Part shown: piece after piece, positions 21,604 to 58,787 of the stretch
How the letters are laid out: each line of letters begins with the position of its first letter
Position numbering within the stretch: the first letter of the stretch is position 1
Source of the DNA: Bergeyella cardium
GTDB taxonomy: Bacteria > Bacteroidota > Bacteroidia > Flavobacteriales > Weeksellaceae
Direction: 5' to 3'
Length of the DNA stretch: 64,000 bases
Assembly: GCF_003614945.1 (NCBI RefSeq)
Contig: NZ_QYCZ01000001.1
Span: forward strand, 824,001 to 888,000
Position numbers and translations under genes: made by a program
Notes under the pieces: model-generated
The model's database searches: none
What the model was told of the DNA's origin: nothing
Seen by the model: only the letters and a program-made list of their open reading frames with translations

Positions 21604-21751
21604 TTGGGTCAGAGACCCCATCGTTTAGGTTAAAAACGCGAACGATTAGGTTAAAAAGCCCGTTGTTTAGGTTGGTTACCGTATTCAATTAGGTTCTTAA
21701 CCTAAAATTTTAGGTTAGGAACCAGGAAATTTAGGTCAATAACCTAAAATA
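21604..21751. repeat. Degenerate 21-bp tandem array of ttaggt units with small palindromes
   Basis: Seven units begin with ttaggt (the first ttgggt) at 21604, 21625, 21646, 21667, 21689, 21710 and 21731, so spacings are 21, 21, 21, 22, 21 and 21. Several units hold an inverted repeat centred in the unit: GGGTC-aga-GACCC, TTAGGTT-ctt-AACCTAA, GGTT-agg-AACC and TTAGGT-caata-ACCTAA. It lies in the 460-bp gap between two plus-strand genes. Confidence 0.8.
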
Positions 21752-21980: not shown

Positions 21981-24065
21981 ATGAAAAGAATTTCAATTGT
22001 ATTTGCATTACTAATCTCTCTAATAGTATATGCACAGAGGCCTTTTATAGGCAAGTGGGAAACTACAGATGGTAAAATTATTCTGCCCACAAGAGGAGAT
22101 TTTGATTATACCTATCAGAAAGAGAATGACCCGAGCATTACGGGCTCTGGAAAAGGTACTTATGCTAAAAATGTAATTGATGTAAGCGAAGCCGGGGCGT
22201 ATATTATCTCCATCACACCTAAAATTAGCCTCGCTTTTGATTATGGCAAAAGTAATGTGCTCCCCTCAGAAAGAGCCCAGTTTAAAGAACTAAAACAGTG
22301 GGGAGATGTAGTCTGGATGATGGTTATATTGGGTAGCTTTAGCGGTTGCTCTGAGCTTAAAGTAACTGCTACAGATGTCCCTAACCTCTCTGAGGTAAAC
22401 TTTATGCTTGAAATGTTTAAAAACTGTACCTCCATTACCGAAATCCCGAATCTAAACCAATGGAATCTCAGTACAGTTAGGAATATGAACTTTATGTTTG
22501 AAGGAGCTTCTTCTTTCAACCAAGATATTTCTTAGCTGAATGTGAGCAATGCGAAAGAAATGAATGGACTGCTCAAAGGAGCAACTGCCTTTAATCAAAA
22601 CTTAGGGAGCTGGATAATAAAGGGAGGAGCGCTTCTTAATGATATTTTTAGCGACTCGGGGATGGACTGTGTAAATTATAGTAATACCCTGAAAGGCTGG
22701 GCAGGAAACCCTAAGATGGGGAAAAATGTAAGGCTCTCCTCTAATATTAAGTATGATAAAAGTGCAGCGACTTCTAGAAAAAACCTTATAGATACAAAAG
22801 GTTGGTATATTTCTGATGATATAGAGGTGTCTGACTGCGCACCCATTGCCCTACCTTTCTCAGGTGTATGGCAGGCAACAGCCGATGGGAAGATTACTCT
22901 ACCAACAGATGGTGCAGACTTTACCTATGAGTATAAAAAGATAGGAGACGATACTAAAACAGGCTCTGGAAGTGGGAGCAAAGGCAAAACAATTATAGAT
23001 ACAGGAGATTCGGGCGAATATCTCATCACCATAACTCCTTCCGATGGCTTTGCCTTTTTCTATGGAGATAAGGACATTACCCAAGAGATAAGGGCTCAGT
23101 TTAAGGAATTACGACAATGGGGAGGAGGGAAATGGCTTAGCAATTTGGCAAGTAGCTTTTCTGGGTGTTCTAACCTTAAAATAACAGCTACCGATATCCC
23201 CAACTTCTCTGCTGTAACCAATATGAACCATATGTTCAAAGACTGCTCCTCAATAGAAACTATACCGAATATATACCTATGGGATGTAGGAAGTGTTACT
23301 TCCTTAGCAGGTATGTTTAAAGGAGCTGAGAAATTTAATACCGCACTTTCTAACTGGAATGTGGGTGAAGTCAGCAGTATGAATTCTATGTTTGAAGGAG
23401 CTACTAAATTCAACCAAGATATCTCCAGCTGGGTCGTAAGTGAGGTTACCGATATGGAGTCTATGTTTTCAGGGGCAGCAGCATTTAACCAAGATATTTC
23501 TGGCTGGAATGTGAGCAAGGTTAGCGATATGCAGTATATGTTCTCCAATGCTACTGCCTTTAATCAAAACTTAGGCGCTTGGCTTATAAAAGAAGATGAT
23601 GCCTCCCTTACGGATATTTTTACAAACTCAGGAATGGACTGTAAGAATTACAGCAATACCCTAAAAGGCTGGGCAGAGAATCCTAACATAGGTCAATATG
23701 TTAGCCTCTCGTCTAATCGTAAATACGGTGTAGGAGCAGAGGTGTATAGAGATAAACTTATGAATGATAAGAAATGGAGCATCTCTGGCGATACCTTTGA
23801 CCCATCTTGCAATCCAGGTCTCTCCACAGAGGATATCACTCGGGCTAAAACAAAAATCTTTGTCCTCAATCCTGTAAAAGACCATCTGCATATCCAAGGT
23901 CTTTCAGGTATTACCAGCATAGAGGTGTATAACCTCAGCGGTCAGCTTGTGAAAATCCTCTTCCATACGGATAGAGACCTCACCGACCTCACCAAAGGAA
24001 CCTATATCCTTAAAATCAATACTCCCAATGTGAGCATTACAGAGAAGATAATTGTAGGCTTCTAG
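21981..24065 (+). pseudogene. BspA-like (DUF285) surface protein with T9SS sorting domain, interrupted by an in-frame TAG
   Basis: One ancestral frame of 695 codons is cut by TAG at 22533-22535. The 5' part has a signal peptide (cleavage near VYAQR), a beta-domain (PFIGKWETTDGKIILPT) and BspA-type 25-residue repeats with MFEGASSFNQDIS. After the stop the same frame continues with the rest of the repeats, then a second copy of the whole module (beta-domain GVWQATADGKITLPTDG plus repeats of the FNQDISGWNVSKV type). It closes with a roughly 75-residue type IX sorting domain (VLNPVKDHLHIQGL ... LTKGTYILKI). At the lesion tcttagctgaat replaces the expected tctagctggaat, i.e. one T gained and one G lost within 8 bases. 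The 5' fragment alone would be exported but not anchored. Confidence 0.85.
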
Positions 24066-45116: not shown

Positions 45117-45388
45117 CACCGTAGCCGGTGAGGCAACCACGAGCGTGGCGAGCACTTAGACCGTAGTCTATAAGATACTTAGATATATATCCCCGACAGA
45201 TGTAGGGGCTTCCCCGATAAGTGTCGGAGCCACAGCGTGGCAGGCACTTATATCCTTACAATATGTCGGAACTCTTCCTCCATCGGGAGGAACTCTTCCT
45301 TCTGGTGTAGGAAACCCTCCTACGGGTGTAGGAGCCACAGCGTGGCAGGCATTTATCTTCCTACAGGTGTAGGAACTTCTCCTTCAAC
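45117..45388. repeat. Long 21-bp-periodic array, about 13 units
   Basis: Unit starts at 45117, 45138, 45159, 45180, 45201, 45222, 45243, 45264, 45285, 45306, 45327 and 45348 keep 21-bp spacing; the last full step is 20. Early units are the GC-rich dispersed types (caccgtagccggtg; ccacgagcgtgg). Later units begin tgtNgg and carry palindromes such as GGGG-ctt-CCCC, CCAC-agc-GTGG and GTAGGA-aaccc-TCCTAC. It fills half of the 600-bp divergent gap between the lipoprotein gene and lysS; 45389-45540 holds nothing I recognise. Confidence 0.82.
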
Positions 45389-54390: not shown

Positions 54391-54474
54391 TCTGTTTTTT
54401 TTGAAAACTTATTGCTAAAAGAATAAGGTTTTCAAGTATTAAAACAAGGTTTTTAAATATTAAAAAGAATCGTT

Positions 54475-54875: not shown

Positions 54876-56057
54876 ATGAATCCAAACCAATGTTCGTTCT
54901 GCGGGAGGCATAGAGAGCAGGTGAAAATGCTCATCTCTGGGCAGAATGGTTATATCTGTGAGAATTGTATAGAGCAGGCGCATTCTATCGTGAAGGAAAA
55001 TGCGGTTCAAAATTCTGCAGAATCAGCGCAAATCCTTGAAAATCTTAAAAAACCTAAGGAAATAAAGGCGTTTTTAGACCAATATGTCATCGGGCAAGAC
55101 CAAGCAAAGAAGCAGCTCTCAATAGCTGTGTATAATCATTATAAGAGGCTTTTACACGCTCAGAATGAGGACCGAGAAGTGGAAATTGAAAAGTCTAACA
55201 TCATAATGATTGGCGAAACGGGAACAGGGAAAACCCTCCTTGCGAAGACGATTGCTCGCGAGCTCAATGTGCCATTCTGTATAGTAGATGCCACTATACT
55301 CACAGAGGCAGGGTATGTAGGGGAGGATGTGGAGAGCATACTCTCTCGCCTACTGATGGTTGCGGATTATGATGTGGAAAAAGCAGAAAGGGGAATTGTT
55401 TTCATCGATGAGATAGATAAAATAGCCAGAAAGTCTGATAATCCGAGCCTTACCCGAGATGTGTCGGGGGAGGGGGTACAGCAAGGGCTCCTAAAACTAT
55501 TGGAAGGCAGCATTGTAAATGTGCCACCTCAGGGGGGCAGGAAGCATCCCGACCAGAAGTACATACAGGTAAACACCCAGAACATACTTTTTATAGCTGG
55601 AGGCGCGTTTGATGGGATACGAGAAATCATTGAACGAAGGCTTAATAAGCAGGCAATAGGTTTTAGTTCTGAGAAGCTAAATGCAGCAGAGGAGGAAGAG
55701 GATATCCTCAGCAAAATCAACGCAATAGATCTGAGGAGCTTTGGGCTTATTCCTGAGCTTTTGGGACGGTTCCCTATTATCACGCACCTCGATAAGCTAA
55801 CGAGAGAAACGATGGTTAGAATTATGAAAGAACCAAAGAACTCTATTGTAAACCAGTTCGTAGAGCTTTTCAGAATGGATGGTATCAACCTAGTGTTTAG
55901 CGATGAAGCGGTAGAATCCATTGTAGATGAAACGATGGAAAAAGGTCTTGGGGCGAGGGGTCTTAGAGGAACGACGGAAAAAGTTTTAGAGGATTATATG
56001 TTTAGCATAGGCGAGCAGAAAGAAATTATACTTACGGGCAATAAAGAAAGCAATTAG
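54876..56057 (+). CDS. clpX: ATP-dependent Clp protease ATP-binding subunit ClpX
   Basis: A 393-residue AAA+ unfoldase that feeds ClpP. The zinc-binding domain has Cys6, Cys9, Cys28 and Cys31. Walker A is [12 protein letters not shown], the pore-loop region is near [10 protein letters not shown], Walker B is [10 protein letters not shown], and the PPQGGRKHP loop and ELLGRFP sensor region are present. The LGF-type ClpP-contact loop is represented by the AIGFSSEK area. No clpP is adjacent. A strong terminator follows. Confidence 0.96.
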
Positions 56058-56089
56058 AAATACTTTAGTTATAAAGTCTGTTTCATTAG

Positions 56090-56122
56090 TGAACCTCTTC
56101 TTGTACAAGAAGAGGTTTTTTA
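56090..56122 (+). terminator. Intrinsic terminator after clpX
   Basis: AACCTCTTCTT (56092-56102) and AAGAAGAGGTT (56107-56117) form a perfect stem with a 4-base loop, then T-rich. Confidence 0.92.
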
Positions 56123-56155
56123 TTGCTCTATTTTTCAGGGATTTTAGTAGAATTA

Positions 56156-56332
56156 TTACAATATGATTTCTTTGTGTTACAATATGATTTTTTAGCGTTA
56201 CAATTCCATTTCTTCGCATTACAATGTCATTTTTTCGCGTTACAATCCCATTTCTTCGCGTTACAATACTGTTTTTTATCGTTACAATCTCGTTTCTTTG
56301 CGTTACAATATGATTTTTTCGCGGTACAATAG
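56156..56332. repeat. 21-bp tandem array, nine units with exact spacing and 42-bp alternation
   Basis: Units start at 56156, 56177, 56198, 56219, 56240, 56261, 56282, 56303 and 56324, every 21 bp without exception. The unit is ttacaat, about four variable bases, then tttYttcgcg. The Y base alternates: C in units 1, 3, 5, 7 and T in units 2, 4, 6, 8. The variable core reads atga, atga, tcca, gtca, ccca, actg, ctcg, atga. Reading frames through it stay open because 21 is a multiple of three. It lies between convergent clpX and the LytTR regulator. Confidence 0.9.
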
Positions 56333-56420
56333 AGCTAACATTCGCTGTGGAAAGAGTTTTGGGTTTAGAGGTAAAAAATATTACTACTAATGAGGATGCC
56401 CGATGGAGAGAAAATAGAAA

Positions 56421-56452
56421 AAGAAATCCCTCTTATGGTGGGGAGGGATTAG
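56421..56452 (-). terminator. Intrinsic terminator overlapping the stop codon of the response regulator
   Basis: AATCCCTC (56425-56432) and GAGGGATT (56443-56450) pair; on the minus strand the stem is followed by TTCTTTTTC. The stem includes part of the TAA stop of the regulator. Confidence 0.8.
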
Positions 56453-57204
56453 CTTTGGGTGAGCCAGTTTTTAAAGTCATTAATTCTATCGCGGCTTATG
56501 GAGAGATGTGGATCGAGGGAGTAGAGCATTTGAACGCTATAAGTAGGCGATGTACAGATGTTTTTAATAAAATGGATATGGATGATAGTCTGCCGATTGA
56601 TTCTGAAAAAGGATGGTGAGGGGAGGTTGTTTTCAAGCTCATCAAGGGAGAAATCTGTAGGGTAGGAGCGCTCTTTCGTTTGCGCATAGACGATTTTGTT
56701 TTCAGAATAGAAAAAAGAGATATCGCTGGTGGGGATTATTTTTAAGTTGGTTCCCGTTTTGGATAAAATCCGCGAGATTTTTGGTGCCTCTGTTGCAATC
56801 ATTGATGAGAAATTAAGGTTCTCATAGTGCTGTGCTTTAGGCGAAAAGCGATGATATTTTTCTATGGCAGTATGGAGCTCTTCTTTGGTTATCGGTTTGA
56901 GGAGATAGTCGACCGAATTGAGTTTGAAGGCTCTTAGGGTGTAATTATCAAACGCCGTAGTGTAGATGATGAAGCTTCGGAGCTCAGTTTTCTCGAAAAT
57001 ATCAAAGGATAGCCCATCTCCAAGCACGATATCGGCAAAGATAAGGTCTGGTTGGCTTTGATTTTTAAGGAAATTGAGACCTTCTTTTACGGAATGTACA
57101 ATCCCGATGAGTTCTATATCTCTCCGCTCGGAAAGCATTCGCGACAGGTGGCGAGCAGCGGGTTTTTCGTCTTCTATAATGAGTGTTTTTGTCTTTTCTT
57201 TCAT
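56449..57204 (-). CDS. LytTR-family response regulator
   Basis: A 251-residue regulator. The receiver domain has acidic EDEKPAAR, phospho-acceptor Asp58 in LIFADIVLGDG, the Thr of IYTTAFDNYTLRAF and Lys in DYLLKPITKEE. The LytTR DNA-binding domain (about 150-251) has DISFFYSENKIVYAQT, PSFFRINRQTIIH and a C-terminal ISRDRINDFKNWL. It is cognate to the histidine kinase next to it. TATTTTTG (57237-57244) gives it a separate promoter. Confidence 0.93.
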   Translation of the reverse strand: MKEKTKTLIIEDEKPAARHLSRMLSERRDIELIGIVHSVKEGLNFLKNQSQPDLIFADIVLGDGLSFDIFEKTELRSFIIYTTAFDNYTLRAFKLNSVDYLLKPITKEELHTAIEKYHRFSPKAQHYENLNFSSMIATEAPKISRILSKTGTNLKIIPTSDISFFYSENKIVYAQTKERSYPTDFSLDELENNLPSPSFFRINRQTIIHIHFIKNICTSPTYSVQMLYSLDPHLSISRDRINDFKNWLTQS

Positions 57205-58673: not shown

Positions 58674-58787
58674 GAAACTCCCTGTCGCTATTGGAAAAAT
58701 TATTTACCGAAAGGTAGGTTTTCCTTACTGAAAGGTGGTTTTTGTTGATTAATTAGTGATTTCAAGTGATTTTTAACTGAATATTTT

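Follow-up and report, generated by a model that had tools for sequence, protein, structure and literature searches.

Tandem repeats in which the size of the unit is constant (20-21 or 52 nt) while its sequence is variable have been described for bacteria by Subirana and Messeguer (PMC8161180), who required a minimum of four repeats in their search, with equal length in at least 60% of these, and report unit sizes of 20-23 nt in many bacterial groups. According to the sections of that publication drawn on here, several such families occur per species, they are in general non-coding, and they exhibit a characteristic short signal; the families, which are those of Bacillus, are called species-specific with one exception. 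The authors equate 20-21 nt with two helical turns and suggest an involvement of nucleoid proteins or of small RNAs, the function being left unexplained in these sections. For the 52-nt arrays, transcription is reported in Bacillus coagulans (PMC8161180; PMC8625621).

The array considered here is situated in Bergeyella cardium, within a stretch of 64,000 nucleotides (the window, i.e., the whole stretch of DNA that was analysed), and it matches a member of these constant-length repeats of 20-21 nt in five of the six features tested. Concerning unit length, 26 of the 50 tandem arrays in a 22% sample of the genome have a period of 21, 42, or 63 bp, and one has a period of 20 bp. Several families of different sequence share the same length within the genome, the window array itself consists of eight full units, all of 21 bp, it carries a short signal (TTACAAT and TTT), and it appears to be non-coding by the absence of both a Pfam match and a frame open in all 17 arrays of its motif (see below). 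An earlier note on this DNA, made from the sequence alone, had stated that no named family has this form; this has to be qualified, since repeats of constant length (20-21 nt) and variable sequence are published, whereas the function that the note left open is, in the cited sections, still unexplained (PMC8161180).

Structure and setting of the window array

The earlier note had claimed nine units with an exact spacing of 21 bp and without a single indel. The spacing is borne out: TTACAAT starts at positions 56156, 56177, 56198, 56219, 56240, 56261, 56282, and 56303, there are no indels, and TRF reports a period of 21 with 8.4 copies, 78% matches, and 0% indels (periods 42 and 63 are scored as well, and 2% indels appear at period 42 only). 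Concerning the number of units, eight are full, whereas the ninth, which starts at 56324 with GTACAAT, is partial and breaks off after 9 bases. The autocorrelation proposed for the gap between clpX and the LytTR gene likewise proved it periodic, the best self-match being 52 of 60 at lag 42, compared to a maximum of 36 over 300 mononucleotide shuffles. As the units abut without spacers, a CRISPR array is ruled out.

Across the eight full units, columns 1-7, 12-14, and 16-17 are invariant, and these include the TTACAAT and the TTT of the short signal. Four core bases had been described as varying almost freely, which holds for column 8, with four letters, and for column 10, with three; columns 9 and 11 possess two letters each, so that the wording is slightly too strong. 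The strict odd-even alternation of C and T in one flank base is real; it is found in column 15 in eight of eight units (P = 0.029 for that column alone, the column having been picked post hoc). From this alternation it had been concluded that 42-bp dimers were once the unit of amplification, for which the window array offers no significant support: Mean identity amounts to 0.802 at lag 42 versus 0.776 at lag 21, a difference without significance by permutation (P = 0.21), and if column 15 is left out, the excess is reversed, with 0.792 at lag 42 and 0.814 at lag 21. Because the excess is slight and is reversed in this way, the alternation does not demonstrate dimer amplification. Higher-order repeats are present in arrays of the Riemerella genus, namely of 42 bp in the genome G001 and of 63 bp in G051 and G033.

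The array's setting past the clpX terminator and between convergent genes is as claimed, both genes being identified by Pfam and the hairpin, situated between clpX and the array, being terminator-like (Table 1); in the terminator scan overall, three hairpins were found versus 3.3 in shuffles. None of the 29 relatives examined possesses the array behind clpX (58 were searched, and the count refers to the loci listed), and in 28 of these 29 the gene following clpX is co-directional. The window array is therefore lineage-specific, as far as seen.

Table 1. Features of the window that are referred to in the text (positions are those of the window)
Feature	Position	Strand	Remarks
21-bp array	56156-56332	+	Eight units TTACAATNNNRTTTYTTNNNR, most ending GCG, then partial ninth (GTACAATAG)
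clpX, left convergent neighbour	54876-56057	+	Pfam zf-C4_ClpX and AAA_2
Terminator-like hairpin, then T run	56091-56118	+	12 pairs, loop 4; consensus match only
LytTR-type response regulator, right convergent neighbour	56449-57204	-	Pfam Response_reg and LytTR
Open frame of 69 codons, TTG start, spans array	56123-56332	+	Judged non-gene
21-bp array, unrelated sequence	54425-54465		TRF, 2.0 copies
21-bp array, unrelated sequence	58704-58742		TRF, 1.9 copies, 5% indels
21-bp array	45264-45333		TRF, 3.3 copies, 6% indels; short inverted repeats in units by eye
Two adjoining 21-bp arrays, GGTYARARACC-like family	21615-21750		TRF; one shared register

Arrays of the same period and the motif in other genomes

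Similar arrays are present elsewhere in the genome; their absence had been named in the earlier note as a refutation. The genome sample comprises 424 kb, i.e., the window and 18 further stretches, and was evaluated for non-redundant TRF arrays with a score of at least 50; the 26 arrays mentioned above consist of 18 with period 21, seven with period 42, and one with period 63, while none has a period of 22 and five have a period of 23 bp. The units of period 21 are many unrelated sequences, forming several families that share their length. Samples of 100 kb from each of four further genera (G007, G020, G059, and G070) of the same family contain 22 arrays, two of which have a period of 21, 42, or 63 bp (Fisher P = 0.0005 for B. 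cardium versus these four), and in the Riemerella-genus genome G001 (240 kb) the proportion is five of 13 (P = 0.0034 if G001 is pooled with the four). Exact 8-mer repeats in intergenic regions of B. cardium exhibit peaks at lags of 21 bp (19 regions), 42 (16), 63 (9), 84 (7), 105 (5), and 126 (7), and a second series is found at 23 (8 regions), 46 (6), 69 (5), and 92 (5), with a mean of 1.5 over all lags. No such series of 21 or 23 bp is found in the lag counts of the four other genera, and the counts in G001 at lags 21 to 84 are weak (4, 3, 3, and 3).

Some indels are reported by TRF for ten of the 26 arrays, so that the strictness of phase found in the window array cannot be extended to the genome's other sequence families, and many of the other arrays contain fewer than four units. 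Concerning gene context, which was counted for 33 arrays (TRF cut-off 45; periods 20-23, 42, 46, or 63), 11 are situated in tandem, seven in convergent, and six in divergent gaps, a further seven inside open frames and two at the ends of stretches; with tandem, convergent, and divergent gaps making up 56, 21, and 23% of the intergenic length, no preference exists among these contexts. Predicted curvature, as calculated from wedge parameters, is ordinary in six TTACAAT-type arrays compared to column-permuted copies (P = 0.10 to 0.50); among five other arrays of the genome, two GGTYARARACC-like ones are strongly curved (P = 0.010 and P below 0.0025).

Several other repeats were observed in passing. 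The arrays with 23-bp units are situated at L093:5824-5905, L094:15619-15694, L095:7277-7339, L095:16277-16418, and L086:15733-15776, one of them being scored as 46, and by eye most of these units contain a short inverted repeat. Short palindromic interspersed modules, e.g., ACCGGCTACGGT, are found in 12 separate non-coding 300-bp bins of the sample, and a 40-base repeat starting with AAGTTGGAACTGCCC, possibly a CRISPR array, in several such bins. At positions 23378-23542 of the window, there is a tandem repeat of 75 bp, a multiple of three, which perhaps encodes a repeat protein.

For the motif search, the pattern TTRCANTNNNNTTTNNNNNNNTTRCANTNNNNTTT (TTRCAnT-N4-TTT, 21-bp spacing) was applied to 120 genomes of the family, 12 of which match; the reversed pattern, as a control, gave one match in the 120 genomes. 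The genome of B. cardium contains 13 matches in four arrays and besides these a fifth, weaker array, the five being located near 320.8, 880.2, 1019.7, 1148.0, and 1597.6 kb. The motif is also found in five of six genomes of the Riemerella genus (g2; 6 to 25 matches each) and in three of four genomes of a third genus (g29; 6 to 9 matches each); three further genomes with one or two matches may be due to chance. The stricter TTACAAT form was found in one of 395 genomes of the phylum, i.e., in B. cardium itself, from a draw that contained no Riemerella-genus genomes. A loose pattern, TTACAAT-N13-15-TTACAAT, was rejected: It matched 183 of 296 family genomes, mostly as single occurrences among the matches listed, and its reversed control also matched many genomes, so that longer patterns were used.

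Furthermore, one form of the unit pair, written for the opposite strand, was scanned as an exact pattern over a genome collection of 84,980 species and yielded nine stretches. Tandem units are visible at four of them, in Riemerella, in a Spirochaetes bacterium (13 copies), in a MAG of the Chitinophagaceae, and in Vibrio penaeicida (about three units). A contig of Riemerella anatipestifer CCUG25054 bears the same array as the genome G065 of the Riemerella genus; the arrays of the Spirochaetes bacterium, the Chitinophagaceae, and V. penaeicida are either related or convergent. The remaining five stretches, four from Marinifilum in the same gene-like context and one from an uncultured bacterium, are not array-like by eye and resemble chance or coding matches.

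In four of the six Riemerella-genus genomes (G001, G033, G065, and G076), the array is situated upstream of the same gene, and this applies also to G064 of the third genus; in the two remaining Riemerella-genus genomes, the relatives found of this neighbour gene were more distant ones. The array of G065 differs from that of G076 at 8 of 315 bases, without any indel. The array-adjacent genes of G064 and G001 are identical in their first 45 residues, a likeness of sequence that hints at a recent transfer between the genera.

Three of the B. cardium arrays (G000:C1 near 320.8, 1148.0, and 1597.6 kb; L246, L245, and L231) are copies of one dispersed intergenic element of roughly 260 bp, in which a five-unit 21-bp array is enclosed by conserved arms; the flanking genes differ from copy to copy, and a weaker match to the left arm exists near 1723.9 kb. 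By eye, the order of units in these three copies of equal unit count suggests that single units are gained and lost whole. Concerning column conservation, the window array and the others agree with a Spearman coefficient of 0.46 (P = 0.04), and a register shift of one base gives 0.49; a first comparison, also with 0.49, was dropped, as it was equalled by a shift of 12.

Conservation of the spacing and its possible causes

The earlier note had suggested that the sequence is of less importance than the period, and this is supported by the recurrence of period 21 in unrelated sequences of the same genome and by the arrays of related genera, in which the 21-bp phase is kept with one exception. The phase set comprises 17 arrays, for which 159 units are listed; 146 with a near-complete core were kept and 13 dropped. 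Within each of the 17 arrays the pattern matches are in phase, and a scan of all phases around them yielded 138 in-phase and 10 out-of-phase cores, with 8.5 predicted by background density; two of these ten, both in G049, are the true continuation of an array, shifted by 1 bp. Since some of the 17 arrays are copies or orthologues of others, 12 were taken as non-redundant, and an indel test made earlier with all 17 (at least 297 substitutions) was replaced because related copies had been counted more than once in it.

In the 12 non-redundant arrays, the number of substitutions over 104 units is at least 195, or 282 if counted on spanning trees, and there is one phase shift of 1 bp. If one indel is assumed for every 20 substitutions, no more than one indel has a probability of 0.0006, and if one is assumed for every 30, of 0.011; these values apply to arrays collected by an in-phase pattern, a sampling that favours intact phase. 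As a yardstick, intergenic DNA of G065 versus G076 contains, in 1664 aligned bases, 50 indels (43 of 1 bp and seven longer ones) compared to 124 substitutions, where the 1-bp indels may partly be sequencing error and where coding DNA also exhibits 61 indels.

The length is kept across genera while unrelated sequences drift, and therefore selection on the spacing fits. As the best explanation, with a probability of about 0.45, we propose that selection keeps the 21-bp spacing and that the array is a ladder of putative protein sites two helical turns apart. Each unit would constitute a site for a candidate DNA-binding protein, for example one of nucleoid type; 21 bp being two turns of B-DNA, all sites would come to lie on one face of the helix and might form a cooperative ladder. 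With a helical repeat of 10.5 bp, 21 bp is the first multiple that is a whole number, from which 42 and 63 would follow, and gain and loss of whole units by slippage or recombination would explain the higher-order repeats of 42 and 63 bp. The position of arrays upstream of the same gene in several genomes of two genera speaks for the ladder. Against it stand the second class, of period 23 (five of the 50 arrays), which does not correspond to two turns, as well as the ordinary predicted curvature, the unbiased gene context, and the lack of the array behind clpX in the relatives.

Ranked close behind the protein ladder, and quite conceivable, is a neutral minisatellite, which would owe both its origin and its growth to slippage or unequal recombination, and in which 21 bp would represent a mutational ruler without selection. 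A ruler of this kind agrees with a length common to many unrelated sequences, with the array missing behind clpX in the 29 relatives, and with the unbiased gene context. Decay in such a minisatellite, however, should break the phase, whereas one 1-bp shift is opposed to the at least 195 substitutions, and one motif is common to three genera. This explanation stays close to the ladder because of the 23-bp class, which would be a second ruler in the same genome, the indels in the genome's other families, the weak agreement of the columns, and the candidate status of the binding protein.

It is improbable that the array is transcribed and, as a small or an untranslated RNA in which motifs recur, acts as a sponge or as protein-binding RNA. 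There is a parallel in the transcribed 52-nt arrays of Bacillus coagulans (PMC8161180, PMC8625621), but the predicted folding of the window array is no better than that of shuffles on either strand (z = 0.89 and 1.80), a search of positions 55500-57000 gave no Rfam match at or near the gathering score, and the array is situated past the terminator-like hairpin, so that the structured RNA considered in the earlier note receives little support.

The same is true of the reading of 21 bp as seven codons, i.e., of a coding heptad repeat (LQxxFFA in the window), which we consider very improbable. The 69-codon frame is open over the array, and the LQxxFFA frame is free of stops in nine of the 17 arrays of the TTRCAnT-N4-TTT family, but two other frames are stop-free equally often, and the LQxxFFA frame contains stops in the remaining eight arrays (in the window array, the stop is confined to the partial ninth unit), such that no reading frame is open throughout all 17. 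Variation in this frame is greatest at third positions, though not significantly so (P = 0.22 in the window array and 0.11 in the others); the 69-codon frame has neither an ATG start nor a Pfam match, and the 23-bp arrays are no multiple of a codon.

Least credible is a derivation from iterons that the chromosome would have retained from the replication origin of a plasmid or phage: Iterons are direct repeats of about 21 bp, to which the unit length corresponds, but the window array has no match in the plasmid search and two weak partial matches in the phage search, an array of the Riemerella genus gave four short partial matches in each of the two collections, and the arrays are found at five separate places on one contig.

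Within the reading preferred here, i.e., a ladder of protein sites with selected spacing, a narrower version is doubtful: The TTRCAnT-N4-TTT arrays might be helically phased ladders for a nucleoid-type protein, kept across genera, transferred laterally along with the genes beside them, and one sequence dialect among several under one 21-bp ruler. If this were true, such ladders would constitute a handle on what keeps the unit length of bacterial satellites constant; for the published satellites of constant length, neither function nor ruler is known. As the motif can be traced across three genera and, for one location, in more than one genome, the question of selection versus ruler would be decidable by strain comparison together with a DNA pull-down.

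Comparison with described repeat systems

The loci used for MLVA typing (VNTR or minisatellite loci) consist of tandem units whose copy number changes by whole units, and the arrays studied here are similar to them in this regard; a single unit length common to sequences without mutual relationship is not known from MLVA loci. The STAR elements of Staphylococcus are likewise interspersed intergenic direct repeats with expanding and contracting loci, but they are described with internal spacer sequences (PMC3532100), whereas the units of the window array abut.

The organization of the arrays is most similar to that of the repeats of Subirana and Messeguer, with which they have in common the fixed length, the presence of several families per genome, the short conserved signal, and the mostly non-coding nature. 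There are, however, differences from these repeats as they are described in the cited sections (PMC8161180): The published families are those of Bacillus and, with one exception, species-specific, whereas the motif described here extends over three genera, which belong to another phylum, and arrays of 23 bp accompany those of 21 bp. To the published class, the present arrays thus add a motif that three genera have in common, a tally of the breaks in phase, and a class of 23 bp next to that of 21 bp.
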